DNA of 64,000 nt from Fibrobacter sp. UWB2 (GTDB lineage: Bacteria; Fibrobacterota; Fibrobacteria; Fibrobacterales; Fibrobacteraceae), in assembly GCF_002210425.1 (NCBI RefSeq), contig NZ_MWQK01000006.1, forward strand, positions 124,001 to 188,000. The letters run 5' to 3'. Shown in pieces: positions 4,532 through 55,177 of the stretch (within the stretch, counting starts at the first letter, position 1; each line of letters starts with the position of its first letter). Below the pieces are notes generated by a model. That model ran no database searches. It worked only from the letters and a program-made list of their open reading frames with translations, and had not been told where the DNA came from. The translations under genes and the position numbers were made by a program.

Positions 4532-4533
4532 TC

Positions 4534-5739: not shown

Positions 5740-5745
5740 TATATT
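5740..5745 (+). promoter_or_regulatory. TATATT -10 element six bases before the lipoprotein start
   Basis: TATATT is followed by GAGGGT and then ATG 5752. TTGTTA at 5715-5720 is a possible -35 but with a long 19-bp spacer. If used, the mRNA would be leaderless or nearly so. Confidence 0.5.
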
Positions 5746-5751
5746 GAGGGT

Positions 5752-8496: not shown

Positions 8497-8509
8497 GACG
8501 CGGTACCTA

Positions 8510-9670: not shown

Positions 9671-9785
9671 GAAATCCTCTTTTTCTAACCTCAAATTTAA
9701 AAAGTTCCCGGAAAGTTTAAAGTGGATATTTATATTATCTACTGGTAGCCCAAAAATTTTGGCATAAAATGAGTTGGAGAATCTT

Positions 9786-10334: not shown

Positions 10335-10348
10335 TCAAAAGGAGTAGT

Positions 10349-10756
10349 ATGAATTATTTTAGTTTGTCTGTTGTTTCTTTGGCGTTGGTCTTTGTAGCTT
10401 GCGATGATGGTAATTCTGCCACTCAGGCAGATGAACCTTCGCCGTCGCTAGAAACAGAGGGTGTTGCTAAAACTTGCATTGAACTGCCGGCTTGCGATGC
10501 TATGGTCAAGTCCGACGTGAACACTTGGCACTTTGTGCGTAAGGACGCGTTCGGTGACGATGCCGAATACACCTACAAGGCTGATGGCCGAGACCTGATT
10601 GTGACCATCAAGGACGCTCATGGTTCAACCGATACCAAGACTTATTCCATGTACAATATGGAATCTGAAGTCGGAGTGGAGATGGCTTATAGTGCGGCGA
10701 AAGCCACCTGCAGGGACGGTGGCGGCAACGACAGGAAGACGAAAGTGTGCTCTTGA
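10349..10756 (+). CDS. Small predicted lipoprotein, unknown function
   Basis: A 135-residue protein with a short signal and lipobox FVAC followed by DDGNS, a pattern common to the other lipoproteins here. The mature part has six further Cys and a segment rich in Asp, Lys and Thr that could form a small beta domain. AAGGAG precedes ATG 10349 at a normal distance. Its TGA stop shares one base with the ATG of the next gene (TGATG), indicating translational coupling. I recognise no family. Confidence 0.75.
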   Translation: MNYFSLSVVSLALVFVACDDGNSATQADEPSPSLETEGVAKTCIELPACDAMVKSDVNTWHFVRKDAFGDDAEYTYKADGRDLIVTIKDAHGSTDTKTYSMYNMESEVGVEMAYSAAKATCRDGGGNDRKTKVCS

Positions 10757-11565
10757 TGGTGTTGCGAAAAATTTCAAAAGTCCTAATGGCGTTGGTTATG
10801 GCTTGTTCGACACTTTGTTGGGCGGACTGCCATACCCTTGATCTTTCTGTAATGATTGCAAAGGATTTTATGGTCGTTGGCGCTAAGGGCGGTTTTTCGC
10901 CTAATATTTTTTATACAACATTGTCTGACCGATATGGAAAGCGCTATGTGACGCTCCATCGCGAAAGCGCTGATGATCCTGGACGCATTATGTGGGCGTT
11001 GTACTCTGAAAAGAATGGTGTGCTTGATAGCGTAATCGTTGATAAGAACCATAAGATGTATAATGCTGTTGGGCTTGGAGAAGGTGGAATAATGCCGCCT
11101 CCATTGAAGAAAAAGTTGAAACTCCGTAGCGACAATGTTGTTGTGGCTCCGTTGTCTGCTCTTGATGAAGTTGCCTGGAATTTGGTTGAATATCGCAAGA
11201 ACGCCGAAGACCGTCCTGATACGAATGATATTCTTTTTGTGTTGGAACCAAATGGTAATCGTGAAGAATTCCTCCAGTGGCTTCGTTCTTATAAGCCGTT
11301 GGTGCAAGCGGCTAAAAATATTGGATTCTCGTTTTTGACGTTTGGATTGTTGAATGACACTGATTCTAGCTATGGCGATTGGGCGACTCTGTCCAAGGAT
11401 ATGTACGATGCCGTGGGTGTGAGAATGCCGTCTCAAGACGAACTAAAAAAGCATAAGAGGTGTTCCTGCACTCTAGGGGATGCACTGGAGGCGGTTCCTG
11501 CAACACCATATTCAAGAGGGGTGCTTGAGATTTTGAAAGGTGTAGGAAACCCTCAAAACAAGTGA
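10756..11565 (+). CDS. Exported protein of unknown function
   Basis: A 269-residue protein beginning with a signal peptide (MVLRKISKVLMALVMACS..CWA, probable cleavage after Ala), so it should be periplasmic. The mature part has no motif I recognise; it carries paired Cys (CSC) near residue 230. Start selection uses the overlap with the upstream stop; GTG 10747 is an alternative nine bases earlier. It is the last gene of the run starting at 9786, followed by the tRNA-Gly transcript on the other strand. Confidence 0.72.
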   Translation: MVLRKISKVLMALVMACSTLCWADCHTLDLSVMIAKDFMVVGAKGGFSPNIFYTTLSDRYGKRYVTLHRESADDPGRIMWALYSEKNGVLDSVIVDKNHKMYNAVGLGEGGIMPPPLKKKLKLRSDNVVVAPLSALDEVAWNLVEYRKNAEDRPDTNDILFVLEPNGNREEFLQWLRSYKPLVQAAKNIGFSFLTFGLLNDTDSSYGDWATLSKDMYDAVGVRMPSQDELKKHKRCSCTLGDALEAVPATPYSRGVLEILKGVGNPQNK

Positions 11566-11590
11566 CTTGCTAAAAATGCTGTTGAAAAAC

Positions 11591-11617
11591 AAAAAAAAAG
11601 ACCTCTCGTGAGAGAGG
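11591..11617 (-). terminator. Second of two tandem terminators after tRNA-Gly
   Basis: On the minus strand ACCTCTC pairs with GAGAGGT across a four-base loop, followed by nine T. It lies just beyond the first terminator and serves as a backup. Confidence 0.8.
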
Positions 11618-11624
11618 TTGGTGC

Positions 11625-11652
11625 AAAAAAAAGACCTCCCAAAGGGAGGTCT
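11625..11652 (-). terminator. Intrinsic terminator of tRNA-Gly
   Basis: On the minus strand GACCTCCC-TTT-GGGAGGTC is followed by eight T, three bases beyond the tRNA 3' end. Confidence 0.88.
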
Positions 11653-11655
11653 AAG

Positions 11656-11727
11656 AGCGGCGGACCGGGATCGAACCGGCAACCATTAGCTTGGAAGGCT
11701 AAGGCTCTACCATTGAGCTACCGCCGC
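11656..11727 (-). tRNA. tRNA-Gly (anticodon UCC)
   Basis: The minus strand folds into a cloverleaf: acceptor GCGGCGG/CCGCCGC, D arm GCTC..GAGC, anticodon stem TTAGC/GCTAA with loop CTTCCAA (anticodon UCC), and T arm GCCGG/CCGGT with TTCGATC. The discriminator is U, as usual for tRNA-Gly, and CCA is not encoded. Two terminators follow directly. Confidence 0.96.
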
Positions 11728-11857
11728 GAGCATGGACAATTATACAAAAATATTGCGCTTTTTAAAGGGGTTCTTAAAAAAAGTTGTTGGAAAAATATGA
11801 AAAAAATTCTAAATTTACGCTCGCATTAACAAAACAATCATATCAGAGGTAGCATAC

Positions 11858-12469
11858 TTGTTCCCTAATCCGCGCGATCGTCGCATGCCCAACCGTCCCA
11901 GCGATGGGACCCGTATCAACGAAGATATCCATATCTCTCCGATTCGTCTCGTGAAAGAAGATGGCGAAGCTATCATCATCGAGACGAGCAAGGCATTGCA
12001 GATGGCGAAAGACGCCGGACTGGACCTTGTGGAAGTCTCCCCGAATGCTAAGCCGCCTGTCTGCCGCATCATCAACTACGGCAAGTACAAGTTCGAACAA
12101 CTGAAGAAGGCTAAGGCCGCAAAGGCCAAGCAGCACGTGGTGAAGCTCAAGGAAATCAAGATGCACCCGAAGACTGCCGAGAACGACTACCAGTACCGCA
12201 TCAAGCAGGCTGGCGAGTTCTTGCAGGACGGTATGAAGGTGAAGCTTATCATGCAGTTCCGTGGACGCGAAATGGCGCACATGGACTACGGCAAGCGCCT
12301 TATGGAACGCGCCAAGGAAGACTTGGCCCCGTTTGGCGATTTGGAAATGGATTCGCGGGTGGAAGGCAACACAATGCTTTCTATCTACGGTCCAAAACGT
12401 GGTGCCGGTAAGAAACAAGACCAGGCACCGAAGCCCGTAACCGAGCCAAAGGCAGCAGGTGAGGCTTAA
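11858..12469 (+). CDS. infC: Translation initiation factor IF-3
   Basis: A 203-residue protein that binds the 30S subunit and checks start codons. The N-terminal domain starts at RINEDIHISPIRLV, and the C-terminal domain contains KEIKMHPKTAENDYQYRIKQA and QFRGREMAHMDYG. The first codon appears to be TTG at 11858, with AGAGGT seven bases upstream; ATG 11885 lacks a comparable site. Non-standard infC starts are known to allow autoregulation by IF-3 in other bacteria, so the same may apply here (inference). First gene of the infC-rpmI-rplT operon. The Lys/Pro/Ala-rich tail of about 20 residues is longer than in E. coli. Confidence 0.96.
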   Translation: MFPNPRDRRMPNRPSDGTRINEDIHISPIRLVKEDGEAIIIETSKALQMAKDAGLDLVEVSPNAKPPVCRIINYGKYKFEQLKKAKAAKAKQHVVKLKEIKMHPKTAENDYQYRIKQAGEFLQDGMKVKLIMQFRGREMAHMDYGKRLMERAKEDLAPFGDLEMDSRVEGNTMLSIYGPKRGAGKKQDQAPKPVTEPKAAGEA

Positions 12470-12490
12470 CTATTAACCTACGAGGTAAAA

Positions 12491-12688
12491 ATGCCTAAGA
12501 TGAAAACTCACAGCGGTGCTAAGAAGCGCTTCCGCGTGACTGGTTCCGGCCATGTCAAGTTCAAGCGCGCTGGTATGCGCCACATTCAAGCTAAGATGAA
12601 CACTAAGCGTAAGCGTAACCTTCGTAAGGGCGCTCTCGTTAAGAAAGTCGATACCTATCATGTCAAGCGTCTGCTTGTCGTAGCATAA
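12491..12688 (+). CDS. rpmI: Ribosomal protein bL35
   Basis: A 65-residue, highly basic protein with the bL35 start [14 protein letters not shown] and the block [12 protein letters not shown]. It binds 23S rRNA in the large subunit. It lies 21 bases after infC with a GAGG ribosome site. Confidence 0.97.
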
Positions 12689-12699
12689 GGAGAGTAAGA

Positions 12700-13050
12700 A
12701 TGCCACGCGCAAAAACTAGAGTTCCTTCCCGCGAACGCCGCAAAAAAATCCTCAAGGCCGCCAAGGGTTACTATGGCCGCCGCAAGTCGAACCTTCGCCT
12801 TGCTATTGACGCCGTTGCCCACGCTGGTCAGTATGCCTATGCACACCGCCGCGACAAGAAGGGTGATTTCCGCTCTCTGTGGATCACTCGCTTGAACGCT
12901 GCTGTTCGTGAATTCGGCATCAGCTATAGCCAGTTCATTTACAAGCTTTCCAAGGCTAACATCAACATGAACCGCAAGGTTCTCGCTGACTTGGCCGTCG
13001 CCGATCCGGCAGCATTTGCTAAGGTCGTCGAAATCGTGAAGGCTGCTTAA
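12700..13050 (+). CDS. rplT: Ribosomal protein bL20
   Basis: A 116-residue basic protein with bL20 hallmarks: [20 protein letters not shown] near the N-terminus, then [18 protein letters not shown]. It is an early 23S rRNA assembly protein, and in several bacteria also represses its own operon. Eleven bases separate it from rpmI, with AAGGAG in the gap. The last 57 bases of the gene and 22 bases beyond are duplicated at 13231. Confidence 0.97.
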
Positions 13051-13079
13051 GTTCTGACTTAGCGAAAACGCGAGAAATT

Positions 13080-13110
13080 CGCCCTGCTCCTTGCGAGTGG
13101 GGCGTTTTTT
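13080..13110 (+). terminator. Terminator of the infC-rpmI-rplT operon
   Basis: A ten-pair stem (CGCCC..CTC with GAG..GGGCG, two wobble pairs) with loop CTTGC is followed by six T. Confidence 0.85.
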
Positions 13111-13230
13111 ACATTTAAGGCGATGGCCAAGTGTGAGCCGGAGTCGCCAGGCGTAAGCTGGCGATGTAGGCGAGAGCATGCGAATGGTCGGAGTCTCGTT
13201 TTTTGATCAATGAGCATGCGGTCGTGTCCC

Positions 13231-13309
13231 GCCGTCGCCGATCCGGCAGCATTTGCTAAGGTCGTCGAAATCGTGAAGGCTGCTTAAGTCCTGACTTAGC
13301 GAAAACGCG
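13231..13309 (+). pseudogene. Duplicated 3' tail of rplT
   Basis: A 79-base copy of 12994-13072 with a single difference (C for T at one position). It repeats the last 18 codons of rplT, the TAA stop and the following 22 bases. It has no start codon or ribosome site and cannot be expressed as L20. The 158 bases between the copies hold the operon terminator and a second hairpin (TCGCCAG..CTGGCGA). The rest of 13051-13371 holds no gene. Confidence 0.9.
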
Positions 13310-13340
13310 GGGTACTTTTTGTATTTGCGTTGAAAATACC

Positions 13341-13368
13341 GTCCCCGGAACGGAGTCCGGGGTGACAC
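13341..13368. repeat. REP-like palindrome (CCCCGGA..TCCGGGG plus TGACA)
   Basis: A GC-rich hairpin followed by TGACA, in the style of the other intergenic palindromes in this window. It lies just past the stop of the M16 peptidase gene and could help terminate or stabilise that transcript. Confidence 0.55.
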
Positions 13369-13371
13369 GTG

Positions 13372-14643
13372 CTAGAACAAATCTATGTCGAGGACGGTCT
13401 TCTTTTTGCTCTTGGGTTCGACTATAGCGATGGAATATTTTGCCGTACTGAGCAAGCGGTTGACGGTTGCGAGGACTTCGTCTTCGGTGATGGAACGTAT
13501 TTGCTTTTCGGCGTATTCCATGGTGTGGAACTCGCCGAGGTGGAGCGTCTGTTCCGCCATGCGGATTACGCGCTTTTCGGGACTGTCTGCACCGAGGTGG
13601 AGCCCGCCGAGAATGTTCGTCTTGGTGCGTTCGAGTTCATCCTTGATGAACCCGTGACGCAGGAACTTCTTGACTTCGGCGATAGAAAGCGCAAGGGCGG
13701 TCTTGAGCTGGTGCGGCTCGGTTGCAAGCGAAATGCCCCAGTCCACGCAGTCCTTGTAAAGGTCTGCGGTGGAATACACGGAGTAGGCGAGGCCTTTGTC
13801 TTCGCGAATTTTTTGGAACAGGCGCGATGCCATGCCGGCACCCATCGCAACGTTGAAAAGCGAGAATGCACAACGGTCGCGGTCGCTCATCAGCGAACGG
13901 TCGAAACTCAAACCCCAGAAAAGGTTCGATTGTGTGATGTCGCTTTTCTGTACAATCTTGATACCTTGATTCGGCGTATAGATATCTTCGGGGGTTGTTC
14001 CGTTGATCTTTTTTTGTTCAAATTTTTTAGCACAAAGTTCTACGAGTTCTTCGTGCTTGACTTTACCCGAAGCGCAAACGTAGAGCGGAATTTCGTCGGT
14101 GACTTGATGCCCGTACTTGAGCATTTGCTTGCGCGTGAGGGACTGGACTTGCTTGACGTTCCCGGTGATGGAATGCGCGATGCCGCAGCCCCTGAAATGA
14201 ATGGCGTTAAAGATGTCACCTACGAGTTCTTCGGGAATGTCATCGTAGCTGTGGACTTCCTCGATGATGACGTGGCGCTCCTTTTCCATTTCTTTCTTGT
14301 CGAAGCGCGGGTGCATGAGCATGTCCGAAATCACGTCAATGGCAAGCGGCATGTCGCTGCTTTCGACTTGCGCATAAAAGCCTGTCTCCTGGCGGGTCGT
14401 GTACGCTTCGAGATTCCCGCCGCGGTCTTCGATGGCGTGCGCAATTTCAAGCGCAGTGCGGTTCTCTGTTCCCTTGAAAACGAGGTGCTCGTAAAAATGG
14501 CTGAGTCCGAATTCATCGCTTGCTTCGTGACGGCTCCCGCGCGGGACCCAAACACCGACGGCTGCCGAATAGGCGTGCGGCATGTAATCTGTTAAGATGG
14601 TAATTCCGTTTTCGAGGACTGTCTGTTTGATGTTTTGTTTCAT
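13372..14643 (-). CDS. M16-family zinc peptidase
   Basis: A 423-residue protein of the insulinase/pitrilysin/processing-peptidase family. The inverted zinc motif HxxEH is present as HFYEH at residues 49-53 in the context HLVFKGTENRTA, with the distal zinc ligand probably in the HVIIEEVHSYDD segment. The C-terminal half is the second, non-catalytic M16 domain with the substrate-binding region. There is no signal peptide, so it is probably cytoplasmic, as in B. subtilis MlpA/YmxG. Monocistronic; upstream is the maeB promoter region on the other strand. Confidence 0.93.
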   Translation of the reverse strand: MKQNIKQTVLENGITILTDYMPHAYSAAVGVWVPRGSRHEASDEFGLSHFYEHLVFKGTENRTALEIAHAIEDRGGNLEAYTTRQETGFYAQVESSDMPLAIDVISDMLMHPRFDKKEMEKERHVIIEEVHSYDDIPEELVGDIFNAIHFRGCGIAHSITGNVKQVQSLTRKQMLKYGHQVTDEIPLYVCASGKVKHEELVELCAKKFEQKKINGTTPEDIYTPNQGIKIVQKSDITQSNLFWGLSFDRSLMSDRDRCAFSLFNVAMGAGMASRLFQKIREDKGLAYSVYSTADLYKDCVDWGISLATEPHQLKTALALSIAEVKKFLRHGFIKDELERTKTNILGGLHLGADSPEKRVIRMAEQTLHLGEFHTMEYAEKQIRSITEDEVLATVNRLLSTAKYSIAIVEPKSKKKTVLDIDLF

Positions 14644-14812
14644 TTTTTGTAATACGCGCGTCGTATGGGAGCTAAAAGTATTATTTGCGGCTTAACTATA
14701 GCAATTTTGGGTAAAAATGTAACAAAAAACACATTTTTGGCACCCTTTTATTGTTGTGTAAATTTTTCTAAATTTTGCGCGAAAATAATGTTATGACTCA
14801 CAGGAGAACGAA

Positions 14813-17134
14813 ATGGGAAAAGACTTAAAGGAAATGGCTCTCCAATACCATTCCATGGGCAAGCCGGGCAAGATCGAAATCGTGCCTACCAAGCCGCACA
14901 GCACACAGACGGACTTGGGCCTTGCATACACGCCGGGCGTGGCTTCACCGTGTCTTGAAATCGAAAAAGACCAGAACCTCGCTTACGAATACACGGGCAA
15001 GGGCAACCTCGTCGCTGTGATTAGTAACGGTACGGCTGTGCTTGGTCTCGGCGATATTGGCGCACTCGCTGGTAAGCCGGTGATGGAAGGCAAGGCCTTG
15101 CTTTTCAAGATTTATGCGGGCATTGACGTGTTCGACATCGAAATCAACGAAAAGGATCCGAAAAAGTTTATCGAAATCGTGAAGGGCATTGCCCCGACGT
15201 TTGGTGGCATCAACCTCGAAGACATTAAGGCTCCGGAATGCTTTGAAATCGAAGACACGCTCAAGGCTGAGCTTGATATTCCGGTGATGCACGATGACCA
15301 GCATGGTACGGCTATCATTTCTTCTGCAGGCCTCTTGAACGCTATCGAAGTTGCTGGCAAGAGCATTCGCAACGTAAAGATGGTTGTGAACGGCGCAGGC
15401 GCTGCCGCTTGCGCTTGCACGAGACTTTATCTGTCTCTCGGTCTCAAGAAAGAAAATCTTGTGATGTGCGATAGCAAGGGCGTTATCCGCAAGGACCGCA
15501 AGGGCCTCACCGAAGCAAAGGCTTTCTTTGCTACGGAACGCACCGACATCGAAACTCTCGAAGATGCCATGAAGGGCGCAGACGTGTTCGTTGGCCTCTC
15601 CAAGGGTAACATCCTCACTCGCGAAATGGTCCGCAGCATGGCCGACCAGCCGATTGTCTTTGCTCTTGCAAACCCGACTCCGGAAATCAGCTACGAAGAA
15701 GCTATGGCAAGCCGTGGCGACCTCATCTTTGCAACGGGCCGTAGCGACTATCCGAACCAGGTGAACAACGTTATCGGTTTCCCGTACATTTTCCGTGGCG
15801 CTCTCGACGTGCGTGCAACGACGATTAACGAACACATGAAGCACGCCGCTGTCCGCGCGATTGCCGCTCTCGCTCACAAGCCGGTTCCGGATGTGGTGAA
15901 CATTGCATACAATGCACAGCGCTTCACGTTCGGTAAGGAATACTTGATTCCGAAGCCGCTTGACCCGCGCCTCCTCACGGAAGTTTCTATCGCTGTGGCT
16001 AAGGCTGCTATCGAAAGTGGTGTGGCTCGCAAGCCGATTACCGATTGGGATGCTTACTACGATCGCCTCCGCGACATGATGGGTTATGACAACAAGCTCA
16101 TCCGTCAGTTCAGCGATACCGCTCGCAGCAACCCGAAGCGCGTCGTGTTTGCCGAAAGCAACCTCAATATGCTCAAGGCTGCTGTCCAGGCTCAGGCCGA
16201 AGGCATTGCACACCCGATTATGCTTGGCAACCCGGAACGCATCCAGATGATTGCCCAGCGCGAACAGCTCGACCTCACGGGCATCAAGATTGTGAACCCG
16301 CGTTCTCCGGAAGAATTCGAACGTCGCCGCAACTACGCCGCTATCTACGCTGAAGAAAACGGCCGCAATGGCGTGACCTTCGAAGAAGCTCGTGACGATA
16401 TGTTTGAACCGAACCACTTCGGTATGATGATGGTGAAGGTCGGCGATGCCGATGCGCTCATTTCCGGTGGCTATTCCAAGTATTCCGAAACGATTGAACT
16501 TGCTAAGGAAATTATCGGTATTCGTCCGGAATACAAGCACTTTGGCGCTATGCATATCCTCAGCACTAAGAAGGGTACGTTCTTCTTGGCCGATACGCTC
16601 GTGAACCGCGATCCGGATGCCGAAACGCTCGTCGATATCGTGAAACTCACGCACGATGCTGTCCGCTTCTTCGCTCACGAACCGGTGATGGCAATGCTTA
16701 GCTACGCAAACTTCGGTAGCGACAAGGAAGCTGCTCGCGGCACTGTGAACAAGGTCCGCGAAGCCGTGAAGACGATTCACGAACAGTATCCGGATTACGT
16801 TCTCGATGGCGAAATGCAGGTGAACGTGGCTCTTGACAAGGATCTTCGCGATACGAAGTATCCGTTCAACAAGATCAAGGGCCAGACCGTGAACACGCTT
16901 ATCTTCCCGTGCCTATCTTCTGCAAATACCACTTGCAAGATGCTCTTGGAAATGGGCGTTGGCGAATCCATCGGTCCTGTGCAGATGGGCTTGAACAAGC
17001 CGGTTCACTTCACCGACTCCGACGCTTCTGTCCACGATATCTTCAACTTGACCGTTGCCGCTGTCATCGACGCCATCGTTCAGGAAAAGAAGGACGAAGA
17101 AAAGAGCAAGAAGAAGTTCGACAAGATCTGGTAA
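14813..17134 (+). CDS. maeB: NADP-type malic enzyme fused to a phosphotransacetylase-like domain
   Basis: A 773-residue protein with two parts. Residues 1 to about 430 are the malic enzyme, which decarboxylates malate to pyruvate: [38 protein letters not shown] and an NAD(P) fold at [12 protein letters not shown]. Residues ~440-773 match phosphotransacetylase ([23 protein letters not shown]). In MaeB proteins this second domain is usually regulatory, binding acetyl-CoA. AGGAGA precedes the start at a good distance. It fits fermentative carbon flow between C4 acids and pyruvate in a succinate producer. Confidence 0.96.
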
Positions 17135-17175
17135 TCGGCGCATTTCGCGCTCGCGATTCTAGTCGCTTTTTAAAA

Positions 17176-17205
17176 GTCGCCGCGGGTAAAACTGCGGCGA
17201 TTTTT
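17176..17205 (+). terminator. Terminator of maeB
   Basis: TCGCCGC and GCGGCGA pair across GGGTAAAACT, followed by five T. Confidence 0.85.
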
Positions 17206-17306
17206 GTATACAGTACAGTGTGTACTATATGGTATAAAATTGCGTTTTTATATTAAATAAAATTGCTTAAAATTGAAGAATTTTAAAGAAATTGTACTAT
17301 GAAATA

Positions 17307-17336
17307 TTGACGTGGAAATAGTCGGAAAGGTATATT
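17307..17336 (+). promoter_or_regulatory. Promoter abutting the second TIGR02147 start codon
   Basis: TTGACG (17307-17312) and TATATT (17331-17336) have an 18-bp spacer. Only seven bases (TATAAGT) separate the -10 element from ATG 17344, and no ribosome site fits between, which implies a leaderless mRNA. Confidence 0.7.
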
Positions 17337-17343
17337 TATAAGT

Positions 17344-18177
17344 ATGAAGCCGATTGTTGAATATCAGGACTACCACGCTTTTTTGAGCGACTACTATGAA
17401 GAACGTAAGAGAACTTCTGCGTTCTCGTGGCGCGAGTTTGCCAAAATTGCGGGTTTTGTCTCGCCGTCGTACCTCAAGATGGTTTGCGAGGGCAGGACGA
17501 AATTGAGCAAGGTGACCATGGGGCGTGTGGCCCAGGCAATTGGGCTTGTGGGTTACGAGGTCGAATATTTTGAAACGATGGTGCTGTTTGGTAATGCCAA
17601 GAATGACGAACAAAAGAAAACGTTCTTGGAACAAATGCATTCGATATCTTTGGCCCATAAGGTCCGCATTGTAGATAAAGATGCGTTTGAGTATTACGAT
17701 ACCTGGAAAAATCCGGTGGTGCGAGAGTTGGCGCCTTTGATGCCGGGAGCGATGCCGGGCGATATTGCAAAGGCCTGTGCGCAAGATGTTTCGGCGCTAG
17801 ATGTCCGCAAGTCGCTCTCTTTCCTGGAACGTGCAGGATTCCTGAAACAAGTTCGCGAGAATGTTTACGAACAAACTGAAAAGTCTGTGGAAGGCTCCAA
17901 GGAAGGATTGCCGCTTGCCATCCGCTCCATGCATCGTGCCATGGGAAATTTGGCGGTAGATTCTCTGAACCGCTTTACGCCGGACGTGCGAAACGTTACG
18001 GGAATTACGATGGGTGTGAATCGTGAGGCGTACGAAAAAATTGTCGCAGTGCTTGACGAGTGCCGCAAAAAGATTACTGAAATTGCAAATGAGTGTAGCG
18101 ATATCACGCAAGTTTACAGATTGAATTTACAGCTGTTTCCGCTGTCAAAGGAAATTGTGAAAAAAGAGGAGGCGTAA
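17344..18177 (+). CDS. TIGR02147 (DUF4423-like) family protein, putative regulator of the following lipoproteins
   Basis: A 277-residue paralogue of the protein at 2345, similar over its whole length. Residues ~25-70 form a helix-turn-helix-like segment (SWREFAKIAGFVSPSYLKMV); the middle has FEYYDTWKNPVVRELAPLMPG; the end is QVYRLNLQLFPLS. There is no signal peptide or membrane segment, so it is cytoplasmic. Its stop is one base before the ATG of the 690-residue lipoprotein, and a third gene follows nine bases after that, making a three-gene operon. Function is not established; DNA binding is inferred from the N-terminal fold. Confidence 0.92.
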   Translation: MKPIVEYQDYHAFLSDYYEERKRTSAFSWREFAKIAGFVSPSYLKMVCEGRTKLSKVTMGRVAQAIGLVGYEVEYFETMVLFGNAKNDEQKKTFLEQMHSISLAHKVRIVDKDAFEYYDTWKNPVVRELAPLMPGAMPGDIAKACAQDVSALDVRKSLSFLERAGFLKQVRENVYEQTEKSVEGSKEGLPLAIRSMHRAMGNLAVDSLNRFTPDVRNVTGITMGVNREAYEKIVAVLDECRKKITEIANECSDITQVYRLNLQLFPLSKEIVKKEEA

Positions 18178-18178
18178 A

Positions 18179-20251
18179 ATGGAGAATAAACTTTATGCGG
18201 CGTGCGGTGCTGTGGCGCTAGCGTTGTGGGCTGCAGCCTGTTCGGACGATAGTGTCTCTGGGACATCGGTGGAACCGAATACGATTGCGCTTAGCTCGTC
18301 AAGTTATTCGTCGAGCAGCGGGACTTTCCCAAGGGATGGTCAACCAAGACTATGTCGCTTGTCTGAAATGGAAAATGCGCCTGCCGGTTGCGACTGGTTT
18401 GCAGAAATGTGGAATCCGGAATCTGGAAACCGCGTCCATACTGGTTTTGATAACGGAACGAATACGTCTGGTATTTGGTATTGGACGTTGGATACAAACG
18501 AAGTTCTGATTCCAAGTGTTTTATGGACGGGAACTGCTCGACAAGATTACGATTCTTTGGCCATGAGCGATGTGATTGAACTTTGCGGTGGTTCTATTTG
18601 CGGCAAGGCGCGTTTTAATGCGGTTGATGGCGTAAATGGTTTTGACTATGAATTTATGAGTGTGGAAAAGCCTGCGTCCGTTGATATCGCTTTTAGCATG
18701 GCAGGTAAAAACGCATCTGGGCGATTTGATCAAGTTGACGCTAGTGGGTTAGGCGGTTTTTGTGTGGGCTATGCGTCAAACGGCTTAATCACGATGTCTC
18801 TTGATTTTAGCGATTCTGTCGATGCTTTGTTGGGTGATGAAATTTATAGAGTAATACTGAATAGAACTACGGTCAATGAAAAATTGAACGACTCGGACTA
18901 TCGTGAAGAATGCTTTGCGTGGGCCGATTTTGCGAATTATGCCAAAAACGTTGTACGTGATGGTGAGCCTGCCGTTAGCGTTGAAAATGCGGTAAAGCAT
19001 TTAGTTGGAGTCCACTTTAAGATAAACGGCTATTACGATAAGTCGACTTTGTCTTTTAAGATTGTTCGATTCGGGCGCTTTGCTACTGCGAATGGTCGAA
19101 AAGCGCTGGATGGTGAAAGCCTCCCGGTAGTTGATGAATCCTGCCTTACTCCGACTGTTGTTGAACATTTCTGCGAGTGCAATTATGCGGATTCCAATGC
19201 TGCCTATGAAGGTACCCGTTTAGGGCATTTGAATGCGGTTGATGAGGCTAGGGGAATTTGGGGGCAGAGCTTGTTAGCAGAAAATACATGCGTCAATGCA
19301 ATGTGGATGCGTTCTACATTGGAAATGCCTCTCATCACGACGGAGAATCGGCCTTGCGACAATGCGCAACCCAAGATTATGCAATGCGCCGACGGCTCGT
19401 TCCGTTATTCTCCAGAATTTGCGTCTGTGAAATCGCGATATGATGATATTGTTGAAGAAAATGCACTTGCCAGAAAGCAGGTTCTTTTGGATCGTGTTGA
19501 TAGCTGCATGAATTTGTCCTCATCATCGGTTAGCAACTCGAGCAGTTCTTCGTTCTTCCCGTGTTGCACGCTTCCTTCGGGCGATGGAGATTTGTGGAAC
19601 GGGTATACTGTAGATGTTGATGTCGGGAACTTTGTTGAATCGCGCAGGGATGACGTGAAATATGGGGTCTGGTTCTTGGCTACTGATACCATTGATGGGG
19701 GCAAGTCCGATGTGTATTGGCCGGTGAATTTTGGCGATGACTTTAATGAAGGTGCGATTGAACCGTTGATTGATCATTGCGGAGGTGTCTGCGGAACGGC
19801 TGTCTTGGATGAGGGAACGTTGTCTTACCAGCCGTATGTGGTTATTGGATTTTCGTTGGCGATTGATGAATATGGAGCGGGCAAATCTATCCCTATTGAT
19901 GTTTCGAATTGGGGTGGAATTTGCGTTAGCTATACGTCGACTATTTCGCTTAATGTTGAACTGGATGTGGGTGATTCGTTAAGCTTTTTGCTTGGCTTTG
20001 CTTTGCCGACGGCGCCTCTTTCGAAGTCTGCAAGCTTTAACAAAAAATGCTTTGAATGGAGTGATTTTAAATTGCCTTCGTGGGCGAAATCTTCACCTAA
20101 TGTAGACCAGGATTGGCTAAAAACTTCTGGATGGCTGGATAGCGCTGGTGTGTTGGCGTCCAAGCATTTGGCGAAGGTGAATTTCAAGATGCAGTCAGCA
20201 CCTGGGATGTATGAGTTCAATATTATGTCGATTGGAACGAATCGCAAATAG
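18179..20251 (+). CDS. Large lipoprotein with two copies of a W/Cys-rich module
   Basis: A 690-residue lipoprotein (signal helix, lipobox AAAC, SDD, GTSVEPN, then a Ser-rich linker). Two related domains of about 200 residues follow, around 75-300 and 475-690, separated by an insert and a second Ser linker. Each module has a W near the start, a C-G-G..CG pair, a W.G.C..Y strand, DS..LLG, then CF.W.DF and a K-L-x-x-x-x-F-K segment. The second copy ends GTNRK. The pattern suggests beta-sandwich domains like carbohydrate-binding modules, but no family is certain. GAGGAGG precedes the start. It is probably surface exposed and controlled together with the upstream TIGR02147 gene. Confidence 0.85.
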   Translation: MENKLYAACGAVALALWAAACSDDSVSGTSVEPNTIALSSSSYSSSSGTFPRDGQPRLCRLSEMENAPAGCDWFAEMWNPESGNRVHTGFDNGTNTSGIWYWTLDTNEVLIPSVLWTGTARQDYDSLAMSDVIELCGGSICGKARFNAVDGVNGFDYEFMSVEKPASVDIAFSMAGKNASGRFDQVDASGLGGFCVGYASNGLITMSLDFSDSVDALLGDEIYRVILNRTTVNEKLNDSDYREECFAWADFANYAKNVVRDGEPAVSVENAVKHLVGVHFKINGYYDKSTLSFKIVRFGRFATANGRKALDGESLPVVDESCLTPTVVEHFCECNYADSNAAYEGTRLGHLNAVDEARGIWGQSLLAENTCVNAMWMRSTLEMPLITTENRPCDNAQPKIMQCADGSFRYSPEFASVKSRYDDIVEENALARKQVLLDRVDSCMNLSSSSVSNSSSSSFFPCCTLPSGDGDLWNGYTVDVDVGNFVESRRDDVKYGVWFLATDTIDGGKSDVYWPVNFGDDFNEGAIEPLIDHCGGVCGTAVLDEGTLSYQPYVVIGFSLAIDEYGAGKSIPIDVSNWGGICVSYTSTISLNVELDVGDSLSFLLGFALPTAPLSKSASFNKKCFEWSDFKLPSWAKSSPNVDQDWLKTSGWLDSAGVLASKHLAKVNFKMQSAPGMYEFNIMSIGTNRK

Positions 20252-49796: not shown

Positions 49797-50324
49797 ATGA
49801 AGAAGCAAGGTTTTACCCTTATTGAATTGATGGTCGTGATCGTTATCATGGGCATCCTCGCCGCCGTCGCAGTTCCGAAACTGTTCGGTATGATTGCTAA
49901 GTCCAAGGCCTCTGAAGTCGGTCCGGCAGCCGGAACCTACGTGAAGTTGCAGGATGCTTATGCCGCAGAATCCAACCAGCTTGGTACATGGGCTCTTATC
50001 GGCTATACAGCTCCGGGTACAAAGAACTCGGATGGAACATTCGAATCCACCGTGTATAAGTATTCTGGAGCAATGACTGGTGCAGTCGCTCTTAAAGAAA
50101 CGGGTGCAACCGCACAGGCAAAAGCATGGTTAGCCGTTGCTCAAGTCGCCTTGAACGATTGTAAAAAAGACTCGGAATGGAGAATTGCTGTTACCGGTGC
50201 AACAACTGGCGTGACTTATGAAAACACTTATTCTGATCAGCCCAACTGCGAAGCTTTGACTCCGAACTTCAAGAACATCGGTACCAAGGCTTCTACCTCC
50301 ACCACAACCGGTGGCAATGGCTAA
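49797..50324 (+). CDS. Type IV pilin, complete (expressed) gene
   Basis: A 175-residue prepilin. The leader MKKQG precedes Phe6, the methylated residue after peptidase cleavage, and Glu at mature position 5 (FTLIE) is present. The hydrophobic helix LMVVIVIMGILAAVAV follows. Residues 44-58 form the conserved block AAGTYVKLQDAYAAE, after which the sequence is variable. Two Cys (122 in LNDC and 151 in NCEALTP) are likely to form a C-terminal disulfide, and the tail is Thr/Ser/Gly-rich. A strong promoter, control region and AAGGAG point to high expression. The DNA encoding its conserved block recurs at the 5' ends of the two cassettes at 52443 and 53657. Confidence 0.95.
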   Translation: MKKQGFTLIELMVVIVIMGILAAVAVPKLFGMIAKSKASEVGPAAGTYVKLQDAYAAESNQLGTWALIGYTAPGTKNSDGTFESTVYKYSGAMTGAVALKETGATAQAKAWLAVAQVALNDCKKDSEWRIAVTGATTGVTYENTYSDQPNCEALTPNFKNIGTKASTSTTTGGNG

Positions 50325-50351
50325 TTCGTAATTCCATTACAATTAAAGCTT

Positions 50352-50386
50352 AAAAAGAGAACTCCAACCGGGGTTCTCTTTTTTTG
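50352..50386 (+). terminator. Pilin gene terminator (repeated at cassette 2 and at 55529)
   Basis: AGAGAACTCC-AACC-GGGGTTCTCT followed by seven T. With its upstream flank (GTAATTCCAT.AC) it is repeated, inverted, after the cassette at 53657. Confidence 0.88.
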
Positions 50387-50520
50387 TAGACAACGAAGAG
50401 AATAACTTGAATTCAGATATTTAATGGCGTTAGTCGAATTAGTGTTACGACATACTTTCTTATGAAAAAGACTCAGACATCAACCTTACAAGTAAATCAT
50501 CTGATTAAAGCAGTATGCTC

Positions 50521-51498
50521 TCAAACCGTAGATTTCATGGCTATGACATAAAGCAGTTCCTTTAAATCATCACCCCAAATTATTTTGACATTTTTACTTG
50601 CCGCATATCGCTCAAAGTTGGAATTCAGCTGCTTTTTGCAGCCTGTAAGAACGACCCACTTTTCAAGCAACATATTCTGACCATTATTCCATTCATCAAA
50701 GGAATCAGCCTTTGAAACCTGATCAATCGGTCCATAACCAACAACATTGTTATAATCTTTAACCTGTATCGCTATGATATAATAGGATTCATCGTAAGTG
50801 AGCGGCGACGGAATTTTAATAATGATGTCCGCTCCATGTTCCTTTTCTATTTTGCCTCCCACTCGTTCAACCTTATAATGGGGGTACAATCTCCGTAAGC
50901 CATGGACTAAAACAAATTCCCATTCCGATTCTGAAAACTGAGAATACATTTTATCATAAAGGATTCTTTTGAAAGTCTCTGCAAAAGCGTCAAAAACAGA
51001 CTCTTCTACTTCCTCATACCGATTGATATAGTCCTTGACCTCTAGCAAGGACGCCCTTGGTGCAGCAATCAACTGTTCAATGATTTCCGCAAAATCATCA
51101 AGGCCCCAAAATCGCATGGGTGTACGAAGTGATGCCTTAAGCTTGCCGACAAGTGAATTGTGGCGGCGAAACTCCGTAACATATTCAGCAGGAAATATGT
51201 GACCAAAATCTTTCAAGGTCGGATCTATTTCAAACCGATAGCCAGTTGCAAAATCTTGCGTAGCACGGACAACCGCAACAGTATCTGGAGAACAAAGGCT
51301 GGGGACAAGAAGAATGTCCCCCTGTTTAACCTTAAACATACTCCTATTACGAGATGCTCCTTCATTTACAGTCATATTTCTTAAATCTTGCCCTGGGTCA
51401 TACCCCCAACCTTGACGAAGATGTTTATGTTCCAACAATTCTTTTTTGAAGAATTCTCTTTGTGAAGTATTTATTCTATAACCATAATAATGTGTCAT
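50521..51498 (-). CDS. Mrr-like restriction endonuclease with N-terminal PUA-like domain
   Basis: A 325-residue protein. The N-terminal ~115 residues look like a PUA/EVE-type base-reading barrel (KQGDILLVPSLCSPDTVAVVRAT). The C-terminal half has an Mrr-like PD-(D/E)xK core: Glu in EWEFVLVHGLRRLYPHY, Asp224 in HGADIIIKI and the QxK variant Q245-V-K247 in IIAIQVKDY. Such reader-plus-Mrr fusions are type IV restriction enzymes that cut modified foreign DNA; I infer this role. No methyltransferase accompanies it, which fits type IV. AGAGG precedes ATG 51498. It lies between the expressed pilin gene and the silent cassettes. Confidence 0.78.
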   Translation of the reverse strand: MTHYYGYRINTSQREFFKKELLEHKHLRQGWGYDPGQDLRNMTVNEGASRNRSMFKVKQGDILLVPSLCSPDTVAVVRATQDFATGYRFEIDPTLKDFGHIFPAEYVTEFRRHNSLVGKLKASLRTPMRFWGLDDFAEIIEQLIAAPRASLLEVKDYINRYEEVEESVFDAFAETFKRILYDKMYSQFSESEWEFVLVHGLRRLYPHYKVERVGGKIEKEHGADIIIKIPSPLTYDESYYIIAIQVKDYNNVVGYGPIDQVSKADSFDEWNNGQNMLLEKWVVLTGCKKQLNSNFERYAASKNVKIIWGDDLKELLYVIAMKSTV

Positions 51499-51577
51499 AA
51501 AACCTCTTTTTTTAAGTTGAATGCTCTTTTTCTGAACAATTGAGCGCGAAGAAAATTCCGCCTGAACATATTGTTCT

Positions 51578-51604
51578 CCCCCCCCCCAAAAAAAAATTGG
51601 GGGG
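51578..51604. repeat. Homopolymer tract C10-A9-TT-G6
   Basis: Ten C, nine A, TT and six G in a row, in the gap between the nuclease gene and the small PUA-like gene (both minus strand). A G8 run lies at 52299-52306. Such tracts are prone to slippage. Confidence 0.85.
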
Positions 51605-51683
51605 AAACTAGAAACGGAACGCTTTAAACAAGAGTCGATGGCTATATTATCGGCTCTTGCTCATTTGGGAAAGTACTGATGGG

Positions 51684-52100
51684 TTATTTACGGTCGAAAC
51701 GCGCTATTTTATCCAAAATAGCTTTTTGAACTTGTTCATGGAACTCTATGTAAAGAGCGCATCCTCGTACGCAGTCCATTTTATCATCTAAACGTCCGAA
51801 CCACAACCATTCTGAAGCATTTTTGGCGGCGAAAAGCCATTTTACTTCGCGAGCTGTACCAAGATCGTTTTCAACAAGCTTATCAGATTTCACAATGCCA
51901 ATAGCCTTGATGTAAAGACCAGCTCTGGGAGAAAAGCTCTTGATAAAGACTATACTACCAACAGAAATTGTCGATAGCATTTGATGATAACTAGGTGATT
52001 GCTGCTTATTCCAGCCAATATAAGCTAGCCCTTGATGAATAAAGGATTCCGTGTTGTTTACGGTTCCATTATCATAAAAAGCGCCAAATCCATAAAACAT
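51684..52100 (-). CDS. Small PUA/EVE-like protein
   Basis: A 138-residue soluble protein. The block VGSIVFIKSFSPRAGLYIKAIGIVKSD has the strand pattern of PUA-like domains such as EVE and of the reader region in the neighbouring nuclease. Aromatic residues (YGFGAFYDNG, WLWFGRLDD) could form a base-binding cage. AGGAGG precedes ATG. No catalytic motif is present. I infer a nucleic-acid or modified-base binding role, perhaps with the neighbouring nuclease; the family is not certain. Confidence 0.65.
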   Translation of the reverse strand: MFYGFGAFYDNGTVNNTESFIHQGLAYIGWNKQQSPSYHQMLSTISVGSIVFIKSFSPRAGLYIKAIGIVKSDKLVENDLGTAREVKWLFAAKNASEWLWFGRLDDKMDCVRGCALYIEFHEQVQKAILDKIARFDRK

Positions 52101-52442
52101 AAGAACCTCCTATTGCTTTGTTCATTGTCGGCTATTAAGCACGTCTACTTGCATAGTTTTGCTCAAATAATAGGGAGCGATTAGAAAATGCAAAGTATAG
52201 TTTCAACAACCTTTACTAGCAATAATAGCAAAAACAAATCCACTTTGCAAGGTTGTTTTTATTCTTTTACGTAGCATTTCTGAAATTATTTTCTAGGAGG
52301 GGGGGGAACAGTCCAATTTTGAGCCCTTTTATTGAATTTTGTCGGGATAGCGACTAGGAAAATGAGCGTTCTGTCGAATAAAGCGACTAAAAAAAAGACC
52401 TTCCCGTGGGGGAAGGCCTAAAAGCTTTTAGCGGTTTGCTAA
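52101..52442. other. Gene-free gap with G8 tract and cassette 1 terminator
   Basis: These 342 bases contain the upstream region of the small PUA-like gene, a run of eight G at 52299-52306 and, on the minus strand, the hairpin CCTTCCC..GGGAAGG with eight T (52393-52421) that follows cassette 1. Confidence 0.6.
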
Positions 52443-52803
52443 TTACTTACCGATCTTATCGAAAGACGGGGTAAGTTGAGAACAATTAGCAGCAACTGCA
52501 GCGGTATAAGTCACGCTATTGCCGTTTGTTGCTGCTGCGGTTGTAACCGTCCACACGTTGTCATTTGCGACAGCGCAATCGTTTAAAGCGACTCTATTCT
52601 TAGCTTGCCATGTAATCGCATTGAATTCGGCAATATCTACTGCAGCTGCAGTGAGTGCCAAAGTTTCACCTGCGGTATAGTCAAAGTTAGTGGTTTGACC
52701 GGCTGTAGATGCGCTCGTGGAACCCGGAGCAACATAGCCGATAAGCTTCCAAGAACCGACCTTATTAGCTTCAGACACATATGCATCCTGCAACTTCACG
52801 TAG
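52443..52803 (-). pseudogene. Silent pilin cassette 1 (no start, leader or N-terminal helix)
   Basis: The minus strand encodes 118 residues homologous to the variable part of the pilin at 49797, beginning YVKLQDAYVSE. Its first 21 bases, starting CTACGTGAAG, are identical to bases 49937-49957 of the expressed gene. Upstream there is no leader peptide or hydrophobic helix, and the frame hits a stop 17 codons back. The two Cys are kept (LNDC and NCSQLTP), as is the end LTPSFDKIG. GTG 52799 has no ribosome site. It has its own hairpin terminator. Best explained as a donor cassette; a decayed pilin gene is the alternative. Confidence 0.82.
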
Positions 52804-52861
52804 TATCTAATGATTTTTCCCTGTTTTTTCGCGAAAAAAGGGCCTTTTTAACAGACGATTA

Positions 52862-52890
52862 TTGACTTAAACGAATCTTTTTTTTATATT
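52862..52890 (+). promoter_or_regulatory. Promoter of the AbrB/PIN pair
   Basis: TTGACT (52862-52867), 17-bp spacer, TATATT (52885-52890), then a palindrome at the expected transcription start. Confidence 0.78.
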
Positions 52891-52894
52891 AAAA

Positions 52895-52909
52895 GTAAGA
52901 AAGTCTTAC
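52895..52909. promoter_or_regulatory. Probable antitoxin operator
   Basis: GTAAGA-AAG-TCTTAC is a perfect palindrome just downstream of the -10 element. AbrB-type antitoxins commonly repress their own operon from such sites. Confidence 0.65.
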
Positions 52910-52918
52910 GGAGGCTCT

Positions 52919-53173
52919 ATGGAAACCTTGGAAATCACAAGTCTCTCAACAAAGGGACAAGTTGTCATTCCTAGAAACATTCGAAATCAATTGAATCTAG
53001 ATATCGGGGATAAGTTGATTGTCGTTTGCGATGGCTCGAACATCTTGCTCAAGCCGGTTCTCAAGCCTAGTATGTCCGAATTCAAGTCTCTTATTGAAGA
53101 AACTGACAAAATAGCAAAGGATCTTGCAACGACGCCTGAAATGTTGAGCACATTCATCAAGGATAATCGATGA
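52919..53173 (+). CDS. AbrB/MazE-type antitoxin
   Basis: An 84-residue protein with an N-terminal SpoVT-AbrB swapped-hairpin domain (TSLSTKGQVVIPRNIRNQLNL, then GDKLIVVCDGSNILLKP). The C-terminal ~35 residues are helical and would wrap the toxin. GGAGG precedes ATG. Its last four bases overlap the PIN gene (ATGA), the usual antitoxin-first order. Confidence 0.9.
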   Translation: METLEITSLSTKGQVVIPRNIRNQLNLDIGDKLIVVCDGSNILLKPVLKPSMSEFKSLIEETDKIAKDLATTPEMLSTFIKDNR

Positions 53174-53586
53174 ATGTTGTTATCGACACGAATGTTCTCA
53201 TTTCAGGTATTTTTTGGAATGGATCACCGCGAAAGTTTTTATCGCTCGTTTTTCGACAGGATATAAAGCCGTATGCAACAATAGACATGATGGCGGAATA
53301 TTGCCGTATCATAGACAAAATTGCAAAAAAGCGCCCTGACATCGCCGCAAAATGGAAAAGCCAAATTGCAAAGGTGATGACCATTATCGAAAAAAGTGAA
53401 ACGGTCGACATATGCAGGGATCCCAAGGACAATATGTTTTTGGAATGTGCTATTGCGGCAAGCGCTTACTATTTGGTAAGTGGTGATTCAGATTTACTAG
53501 TATTAAGGGAATTCAAGAAGATTCCAATCGTTACAGTAAATCAATTTTTTGATGCGCACCCAGAATACGAAGTGACTGAAGCTTAA
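53170..53586 (+). CDS. PIN-domain toxin
   Basis: A 138-residue predicted Mg-dependent ribonuclease of the TIGR00305-like toxin family. Acidic residues are in place: VVIDTNVLISG at the start, CRDPKDNMFLECA in the middle and SGDSDLLVL near the end. It is coupled to the AbrB antitoxin gene. It lies between the two silent pilin cassettes, and may stabilise this region against loss (inference). Confidence 0.9.
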   Translation: MNVVIDTNVLISGIFWNGSPRKFLSLVFRQDIKPYATIDMMAEYCRIIDKIAKKRPDIAAKWKSQIAKVMTIIEKSETVDICRDPKDNMFLECAIAASAYYLVSGDSDLLVLREFKKIPIVTVNQFFDAHPEYEVTEA

Positions 53587-53602
53587 TGAATGATTAACTA
53601 TA

Positions 53603-53638
53603 CAAAAAAAGAGAACCCCGGTTGGAGCTCTCTTTTTA
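53603..53638 (-). terminator. Cassette 2 terminator, copy of the pilin terminator
   Basis: Minus strand: AAAAAGAGAGCTCC-AACC-GGGGTTCTCTTTTTTTGTA, one mismatch to 50352-50386. The AbrB/PIN operon converges on it. Confidence 0.85.
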
Positions 53639-53656
53639 AGTTCGTTCGTTATGGAA

Positions 53657-54023
53657 TTACGTGCCGGAATTATTGCCAATTGCAGTAAAGCTAGGAGTCA
53701 GAGTGCCGCAAGCACCAGTAGCTCCGTCAGGGGTTGCTGCAACATGTGTAAGGGTTCCCGATGTAGCTGTGTTTTCTGCACCTGTTTTAGTGGTTGTGAC
53801 AGTCCAGCTTTGACCTGATGCGCAATCATTCATCTTACCATTGGATGTTGCAGTCCAAACTTCGCTAGTACTTGCTGTGAGCACTTCTGTATAAGTGAAT
53901 GTATTTGTCACCCAACCGGCATCACCCTTCTTTCCAGGAGGAACATAACCAATTGCGGCGAAGTTGCCGATTTCTTCCTTTTCCGCAGCATACGCATCCG
54001 CCAACTTCACGTAGGTTCCGGCT
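53657..54023 (-). pseudogene. Silent pilin cassette 2 (no start, leader or N-terminal helix)
   Basis: The minus strand encodes AGTYVKLADAYAAE and about 110 further residues homologous to the expressed pilin's variable region. Its 5' edge shares a 22-base identical block with 49928-49949, starting AGCCGGAACC. Its 3' edge shares GTAATTCCAT.AC and then the whole terminator with the expressed gene. The two Cys (MNDC and ACGTLTP) and the end LTPSFTAIG are retained. No leader, hydrophobic helix, promoter or ribosome site is present. Homology at both edges makes it a well-formed donor for gene conversion into 49797. Confidence 0.85.
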
Positions 54024-54027
54024 ATTA

Positions 54028-54055
54028 TTGACCATTTTTTCCCATTTTATATATT
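54028..54055 (+). promoter_or_regulatory. Promoter abutting the second DUF3791 gene
   Basis: TTGACC (54028-54033), 16-bp spacer, TATATT (54050-54055), then seven bases (TCTCAAT) and ATG 54063. It starts only five bases from the 5' edge of cassette 2, on the other strand. Confidence 0.65.
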
Positions 54056-54062
54056 TCTCAAT

Positions 54063-54275
54063 ATGGAAAAACAAATAGCGTGGACGGTCGCTGCTATTAG
54101 TGAATTTGCTAAGGCGAAAGAGCTTTCACCCAAACAAGCTTTTAATTATCTGAGACTTTTTAAAGGAATGGATTTTCTAGAAAAGCATTATGAGGCAGAA
54201 CATTTGCTCTCTTTTGACGATACCGTTGATGATTTGACCGCAATCTGTCAAAGAAACGGTGGACTCATTCAATGA
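54063..54275 (+). CDS. DUF3791-type small protein, second copy
   Basis: A 70-residue protein: QAFNYLRLFKGMDFLEKHYEAEH and the DUF3791 end TVDDLTAICQRNGG. It resembles the copy at 47086 along its length. The DUF3990 gene expected next is absent, leaving only 22 bases before the remnant of the third module gene. It may be an orphan remnant of a toxin-antitoxin-like module. Confidence 0.72.
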   Translation: MEKQIAWTVAAISEFAKAKELSPKQAFNYLRLFKGMDFLEKHYEAEHLLSFDDTVDDLTAICQRNGGLIQ

Positions 54276-54297
54276 TTTTTGATCGCGGATTTCATGC

Positions 54298-54531
54298 ATG
54301 ACCCCACAACAGGAATTTCTCGTTGAGGGAATTGTCAGCGACATGGCCAAATGGTTGATGGAAGATCGCAATCTATCGCTATAGGCTGCGCTAAGTCTCA
54401 TCTACAATTCAAAAACTTTTGAACTATTGCAAAATCCAGCAACAGGCCTTTGCACGGAAAGTTCTGCTTACAATTACGATTTGTTAGATTCTGAGTTAAA
54501 AAACGGAAAAATAATTCAGATGGATTTTTAA
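54298..54531 (+). pseudogene. Broken copy of the third module gene (in-frame TAG)
   Basis: Translation gives EFLVEGIVSDMAKWLMED.. then TAG at 54382-54384, followed in the same frame by AALSLIYNSKTFELLQNPATGL. Both halves align with the intact protein at 47586 (AFNFVYKSKIFDSLNDPSTGL), so a sense codon has become a stop. The C-terminus has also diverged. Confidence 0.78.
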
Positions 54532-54649
54532 CAATCCCGTCCGAAAATAATGTTGCGGCATCTCACGTTATTAGGTAAAATGTTTTTGTGTCCGCCCTTT
54601 TTTGCCGTCAATTAATTATTTTTATTGAGTCAGATTTCAAGGACATTTT

Positions 54650-55177
54650 ATGCATAGCAAATCGTTGCTGGGGAGCGCGATGAAAAAGCAAGGATTCACT
54701 CTTGTCGAGTTGATGGTTGTGATTGTAATCATAAGCATCCTCAGTACTGTTGCCGTTCCAAAGCTGTTCGGCATGATTGCCAAGTCGAAGGCTTCCGAGC
54801 TTAGCCCTGCGGCCAAGACCTACATTAAACTGCAAAACTCCTACATAGGCGAGAGGCATATGCTAGGCTCCTGGGCTGTCATTGGGTACATCAGCCCTGG
54901 CACAAGGGTATCGGCGGACTCCTCTGTAACCACTAACTTTTGTTATGGAAGTGGTGATATAAGGGGGAATGGTGCCGACGCTTCTGTCGCTATTGAGGCG
55001 AATTCCGTTACTGTTGGCTGGGTTGCGACAAGCCGGGTTGCACTGAACGATGTTCCCAAGAACTCATCCTGGACGGTTTCTATCGCGGTTGACAACGCAG
55101 GCGTGTTCCGGTACACGGCGACAGTTCCGACGGATGGTGAAGTTCTAACTCCGACATTTACCCAGATAGTGCATTGA
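54650..55177 (+). CDS. Second complete type IV pilin, divergent
   Basis: A prepilin of 175 residues from ATG 54650, or 165 from ATG 54680. The pilin core is MKKQGFTLVELMVV with Gly-Phe cleavage site and Glu at mature position 5, then VPKLFGMIAKSKASE as in the pilin at 49797. ATG 54650 has AAGGA six bases upstream and gives a 15-residue leader; ATG 54680 gives the usual short leader and has GGGAG four bases upstream. The variable region aligns at IGYISPGT, SRVALND and VLTPTFTQI, but both Cys found in the other copies are replaced. No strong promoter is visible. It may be a minor pilin or a decaying copy. Confidence 0.85.
   Translation: MHSKSLLGSAMKKQGFTLVELMVVIVIISILSTVAVPKLFGMIAKSKASELSPAAKTYIKLQNSYIGERHMLGSWAVIGYISPGTRVSADSSVTTNFCYGSGDIRGNGADASVAIEANSVTVGWVATSRVALNDVPKNSSWTVSIAVDNAGVFRYTATVPTDGEVLTPTFTQIVH

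Follow-up and report, generated by a model that had tools for sequence, protein, structure and literature searches.

Two open reading frames, P0001 and P0002, lie next to each other on the minus strand within a type IV pilin cluster of Fibrobacter sp. UWB2 (Table 1; all positions refer to the window, i.e., the whole 64,000-nucleotide stretch of DNA analyzed here). Their extents are exactly those given in the original prediction, as are their ribosome sites (AGAGG-TTTT-ATG for P0001 and AGGAGG-TTCTT-ATG for P0002). That prediction also placed the two genes between pilin expression and donor sites. A full-length pilin gene and truncated pilin cassettes do flank them; the expression role of the former and the donor role of the latter are inferred from the anatomy of the cluster. 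Pilin genes and cassettes have a common seam, terminator-like repeats recur throughout the cluster (49797-55177), and the homology-search match of the first cassette runs through one in-frame TAA. A literature search on pilin antigenic variation in Fibrobacter gave just a general review and, in the text retrieved, nothing on this cluster.

Table 1. Features of the pilin cluster and of the genes carried within it (window positions; residue numbers for the domains of P0001).
Feature	Position	Strand	Basis or remark
P0001, 325 aa, predicted solo reader-nuclease	50521..51498	-	ORF, Mrr_cat profile, alignment, AlphaFold2 fold
P0001, predicted YTH/EVE-like PUA domain	residues ~1-150		
P0001, long helix	residues 157-187		
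P0001, predicted PD-(D/E)XK domain	residues ~173-325		Mrr_cat, D-QxK
Spacer between P0001 and P0002, 185 nt, structured	51499..51683	-	C/G hairpin around C10 run, + strand 51578-51587
P0002, 138 aa, predicted stand-alone EVE/YTH-like PUA protein	51684..52100	-	ORF, AlphaFold2 fold
Type IV pilin ORF, full-length	49797..50324	+	putative expression copy, one cargo flank
Pilin cassette, N-terminally truncated	52443..52799	-	putative silent donor, opposite cargo flank
MazE-type antitoxin and PIN_3 gene pair	52919..53586	+	low-GC cargo at the same pilin site
Truncated pilin cassette no. 2	53657..54010	-	
Full pilin no. 2	54650..55177	+	

The spacer between the two genes is structured (z -2.79). Within the window, G or C runs of at least 7 occur just twice, at 51578-51587 and 52299-52306, in the spacers either side of P0002; the C6...G8 pattern is found a single time genome-wide. 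We make no claim for these tracts as switches, since 12 of 13 relatives' loci have no G or C run of that length and the remaining one (L013) has a single run far from the gene.

Sequence evidence for P0001 as a nuclease comes from its C-terminal half. D224 and Q245-V246-K247 are present, and in a 13-member family alignment (the 12 others being 27-86% identical to P0001) E194, G222, D224, Q245, and V246 do not vary; K247 is almost always kept, with R in its place in one member (L022). The Mrr_cat profile (PF04471; curated cut-off 21 bits) covers residues 208-316 with 20.1 bits by hmmscan and 21.6 bits in the genome search, and matches 10 of the 13 family members at E <= 0.1 (best 1.9e-8). A second Mrr_cat protein encoded in the same genome (G000:C11:3681-4043, locus L001) is a far clearer match (E 6.9e-36). 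The N-terminal domain of P0001 also has residues that are invariant across the alignment—LRQGWGY (27-33), D97, H100, R129, and W131—and is recognized by no sequence profile of Pfam, NCBIfam, PADLOC, or PHROGs. No EVE or YTH Pfam match appeared in the alignment at E <= 0.1, and the likeness to these domains is one of fold only. Searches of the PDB (phmmer and hmmsearch) gave no credible sequence match, those of PHROGs and of the INPHARED phages no match to P0001, and IMG/VR no relative. The sole PADLOC match of P0001 itself was to BrxB (E 0.0024, residues 170-248), an identity that we dropped because the match was partial and marginal. Across the family, PADLOC assigned PDC-S02 to up to three members (best E 2.9e-7) and ZorD to one (E 1.4e-5); we rejected membership in either, reading these matches as the common nuclease core. 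By eye, no partner methyltransferase was seen among the ORFs around P0001 in the window, and an ORF near the P0001 relatives in two other loci (L023 and L034) reads as a DNA cytosine methyltransferase.

Structure prediction extends the description to both halves of the protein. The AlphaFold2 model of P0001 has a mean pLDDT of 88.1 and a pTM of 0.58, which makes the individual domains more reliable than the way they are arranged. Its top PDB match by Foldseek is MspJI (E 1.8e-6), with a TM of 0.30 and an rmsd of 20.6 across both domains. When the domains were aligned separately with VIA-align, for which a Z of 8 to 10 is moderately above the tool's reported background, residues 173-325 placed four nucleases in a tie or near-tie: AF1548 (Z 9.9, rmsd 2.7, 113 aligned), MspJI (Z 9.7, rmsd 3.6, 139 aligned), LlaBIII (Z 9.6, rmsd 3.4, 126 aligned), and AspBHI (Z 8.9, rmsd 3.8, 137 aligned). 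EndoMS-type repair nucleases scored like MspJI on this core (Z 9.2 and 9.0). Residues 1-150 aligned with YTHDC2 (Z 9.0, rmsd 2.9, 115 aligned) and with the EVE domain of VcaM4I (Z 8.6, rmsd 3.8, 126 aligned). The model thus supports a YTH/EVE-type PUA barrel at 1-150 and a PD-(D/E)XK core at 173-325, in agreement with the PUA-like N-terminus and Mrr-type core originally read from the sequence.

For P0002, profile searches were silent: neither Pfam, PADLOC, nor NCBIfam matched the protein, and its 8-member alignment gave no EVE or YTH Pfam match at E <= 0.1 and none in PHROGs. Its AlphaFold2 model (pLDDT 87.6, pTM 0.84) aligns best, over the full length, with PH1033 (Z 11.3, rmsd 2.9, 116 aligned) and, as the fourth match, with the VcaM4I EVE domain (Z 11.0, rmsd 3.4, 122 aligned); four EVE-type entries score from 11.3 to 11.0 and the next entry 9.1. 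The fold predicted for P0002 therefore supports a stand-alone EVE-like domain, as had been proposed, and structure prediction, suggested at the outset as a check, returned PUA barrels in the models of both proteins and a nuclease core in that of P0001. Relatives of P0002 occur in two Fibrobacter genomes (53% identity), on Priestia and Thiothrix plasmids, the former near a type I RM operon, and in four viral contigs (L035, L036, L037, and L040). In L035 the P0002-like EVE gene directly follows the terminase large subunit, and in L037 it is flanked by terminase and portal genes, both of which L036 also has.

P0001 is under purifying selection, with a dN/dS of 0.070 between the window copy and that of genome G008 and of 0.051 between those of G008 and G058; dS is saturated in the remaining pairs among the four close copies, and pairs with the distant L020 copy give 0.10 to 0.34, their dS being either 1.5 to 5.3 or saturated. 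The dS of P0002 from the window is saturated as well. Because both genes have homologues and P0001 a low dN/dS, neither ORF is a chance one. Where this can be checked, P0001 moves as a single gene: window DNA matches G008, G058, and G009 across P0001 alone (50560-51459, 50557-51491, and 50534-51502, respectively), and the similarity to these three relatives stops within ~40 bases of either end of the gene. The five window genes with the lowest GC, out of 45 listed, all lie in the pilin cluster and include P0001 and P0002. A GTDB scan with two P0001 peptide patterns matched 34 stretches, 16 of which encode a relative (a lower bound, given two patterns), under record titles that include Fibrobacter, Capnocytophaga, Alistipes, Pseudovibrio, Acidobacteria, Deltaproteobacteria, and others.

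The surroundings of these copies vary, and when neighboring ORFs were clustered across 19 loci and the window, no family besides that of P0001 occurred in more than three loci. In G008 the relative sits behind ORFs that match PADLOC ZacA, ZacB, and ZacC (E 4e-64, 3e-110, and 3e-278), i.e., by sequence behind a ZacABC-like defense operon, and a NERD protein is encoded two genes after it; a literature search on the Zac names gave nothing relevant. In G058 it lies behind a PLD-like ORF that scores below the Pfam cut-off. In G009 (L015, ~1600-19400) the homologue is part of a prophage, which has genes for terminase, portal, and baseplate and also encodes QueC, FolE, a radical-SAM ORF, and a queuine tRNA-ribosyltransferase-like ORF; this sequence context suggests that the phage may modify its own DNA while carrying the putative reader-nuclease. 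Another relative is on a plasmid, annotated "restriction endonuclease." Neighbors could be identified as defense genes in a minority of P0001 loci, with profiles run at few of them.

The original prediction joined the two proteins into a two-component type IV defense system and proposed their co-occurrence in other genomes as a check. Among 80 Fibrobacter genomes, five carry P0001 (the genome studied here, G008, G058, G009, and G118) and three carry P0002 (the genome studied here, G018, and G005), and only the genome studied here has both; 40 of the 80 are >= 90% complete with <= 5% contamination, and these 40 include four P0001 and two P0002 carriers. When family profiles were run over flanks of up to ~10 kb (less where a contig ended), none of the 19 other distinct P0001 loci contained P0002, and none of the 8 other P0002 loci contained P0001. 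Here the duplicates L018/L010 and L019/L013 were taken once, L019 lying wholly inside L013, and the G118 copy is L020. A match to the P0001 profile in L017 (9e-6) was not counted as co-occurrence because it belongs to a different, 767-aa protein. In hhalign, the P0001 and P0002 families share a match of only 23 columns (prob 14.7), so beyond a common fold we do not claim that the two readers are related.

These distributions weigh on any scheme that needs both proteins. If P0002 read a modified base and then recruited or licensed P0001 to cut, one could explain why the genes are adjacent, on the same strand, 185 bp apart, and both endowed with reader folds; however, the partner is missing from all of the 19 and 8 other loci and the two genes meet in one of the 80 Fibrobacter genomes, P0001 has a reader of its own, a structured spacer separates the genes, and the two families hardly align, which makes such a division of labor very unlikely. 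What survives of the original proposal is that P0001 may have a type IV-like role, which is plausible given the fusion of a predicted reader to an Mrr-type core; its two-component form does not fit the lack of co-occurrence. An alternative in which P0002 restrains a P0001 nuclease that attacks host DNA, as in a toxin–antitoxin pair, draws on the presence of such cargo at this site in the window and in relatives (MazE/PIN_3, DUF3791, DUF3990, and a sub-cut-off HipA_C) and on the apparent lack, judged by eye, of a partner methyltransferase around P0001. Yet the same lack of co-occurrence applies, and P0001 relatives persist without P0002; we regard this reading as a shade less probable still.

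The pilin setting was examined in the stretch downstream of a conserved 451-aa ORF, in the nine relatives closest by that ORF among 61 genomes (the L074 stretch being ~4 kb only). A full pilin is kept in eight of these nine equivalent loci and truncated cassettes in six (L071-L075 and L077), and L079 has neither. P0001 and P0002 are absent from all nine, and also from elsewhere in the same nine genomes. Other cargo is found there instead: PDDEXK_2, DUF3990, AAA_14/DUF4143, and HipA_C-like proteins, as compared with MazE/PIN_3 and DUF3791 at the window site. Three of the nine loci (L072, L073, and L075) have a PDDEXK_2 gene, for a transposase-type nuclease. Since the relatives' loci hold other cargo and neither P0001 nor P0002, the cluster is a site whose cargo varies, and the idea that it might form an island of phage-related functions is not borne out. 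In gonococcus, two RM modules are reported, in the text retrieved, to drive pilin gene conversion and variation (PMC12871193). With this Neisseria precedent, and with its gene flanked by a full pilin and by truncated cassettes that have seams in common, P0001 could be imagined to cut pilin copies and so to drive gene conversion. By analogy, the nuclease might be used in place, its cutting of (possibly modified) pilin copies feeding conversion and the cassettes helping to swap nuclease cargo between strains, which would be a strain-specific equivalent of the gonococcal variation; we consider this variant just as improbable. Pilins and cassettes persist at the relatives' loci in the absence of both genes, and a search with the window pilin gave no relative within the fetched extent of the 19 other P0001 loci; the wider stretch of the Nitrosococcus plasmid (L018) holds one weak pseudopilin match (E 8e-4), ~14 kb from the P0001 relative. 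The absence of both genes from nine loci and the absence of pilins next to other P0001 copies disfavor the conversion reading, which we hold to be the least probable of those considered. A nuclease-fold protein with a role other than restriction, e.g., in DNA repair, finds some support in the scores of the EndoMS-type enzymes on the P0001 core. It is unlikely, if less so than the readings above, given that a reader domain is fused ahead of the nuclease and that the patchy single-gene spread, prophage and plasmid included, is unlike that of a repair gene.

We therefore consider it probable that P0001 works alone as a modification-dependent (type IV-like) restriction endonuclease, that P0002 is an independent EVE-like reader, and that both are acquired cargo between pilin cassettes. 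As in type IV enzymes, P0001 has a nuclease core with intact catalytic residues, seen in the alignment and in the predicted fold, and, at the level of fold, a fused reader of a modified-base-binding type. Its N-terminal YTH/EVE-type PUA barrel would recognize a modified base on DNA entering the cell, probably by flipping it out, and the Mrr-type PD-(D/E)XK domain (D224, Q245-x-K247) would then cut near the base so read, which may protect the cell from phages or plasmids whose DNA is modified. P0002 would act on its own, as a reader of a kind known from phages and beside an RM operon. The P0001 family thus appears as a set of scattered, compact reader-nucleases, borne on chromosomes, a plasmid, and a prophage, whose reader half escapes every Pfam, NCBIfam, and PADLOC profile; if active, such enzymes would serve as small tools for detecting modified bases. 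The Fibrobacter pilin locus, in turn, may be viewed as an exchange site of toxin–antitoxin-like and defense-like genes beside pilin cassettes.

Among known enzymes, MspJI and AspBHI are modification-dependent and combine a D-QxK-type nuclease with an SRA-like reader. They provide some of the nearest solved nuclease cores to that of P0001, and all three join a reader and a PD(D/E)XK nuclease in a single chain, whereas the predicted reader of P0001 resembles YTH/EVE domains and its sequence has no credible match to a PDB chain. The candidate defense nucleases of PADLOC PDC-S02 match up to 3 of the 13 P0001-family members, but not P0001 itself. Stand-alone EVE proteins have the fold and size of P0002; P0002 differs in its lack of a Pfam EVE match, and some of its relatives lie in phage contigs, by terminase or portal genes. 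The EVE-HNH enzyme VcaM4I, as described in the text retrieved, likewise couples a PUA-superfamily reader to a nuclease, and both P0001 1-150 and P0002 are similar to its EVE domain, but the VcaM4I nuclease is of the HNH type rather than PD-(D/E)XK (PMC7897488). Escherichia coli Mrr, from the part of its description consulted, shares the Mrr_cat core and PD-QxK site with P0001, though its reader is a winged helix and that of P0001 a predicted PUA barrel (PMC12707154). Closest in design are the EVE-PD(D/E)XK putative type IV enzymes and the YTH-like domains fused to PD(D/E)XK nucleases named in the retrieved sections of Bell et al. (2020; PMC7641849): these enzymes and P0001 both pair an EVE/YTH-superfamily reader with a PD(D/E)XK nuclease and are predicted to be modification-dependent, and the LRQGWGYD subfamily of P0001 is matched to them by architecture. 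That architecture is already described, and P0001 adds another example of it.
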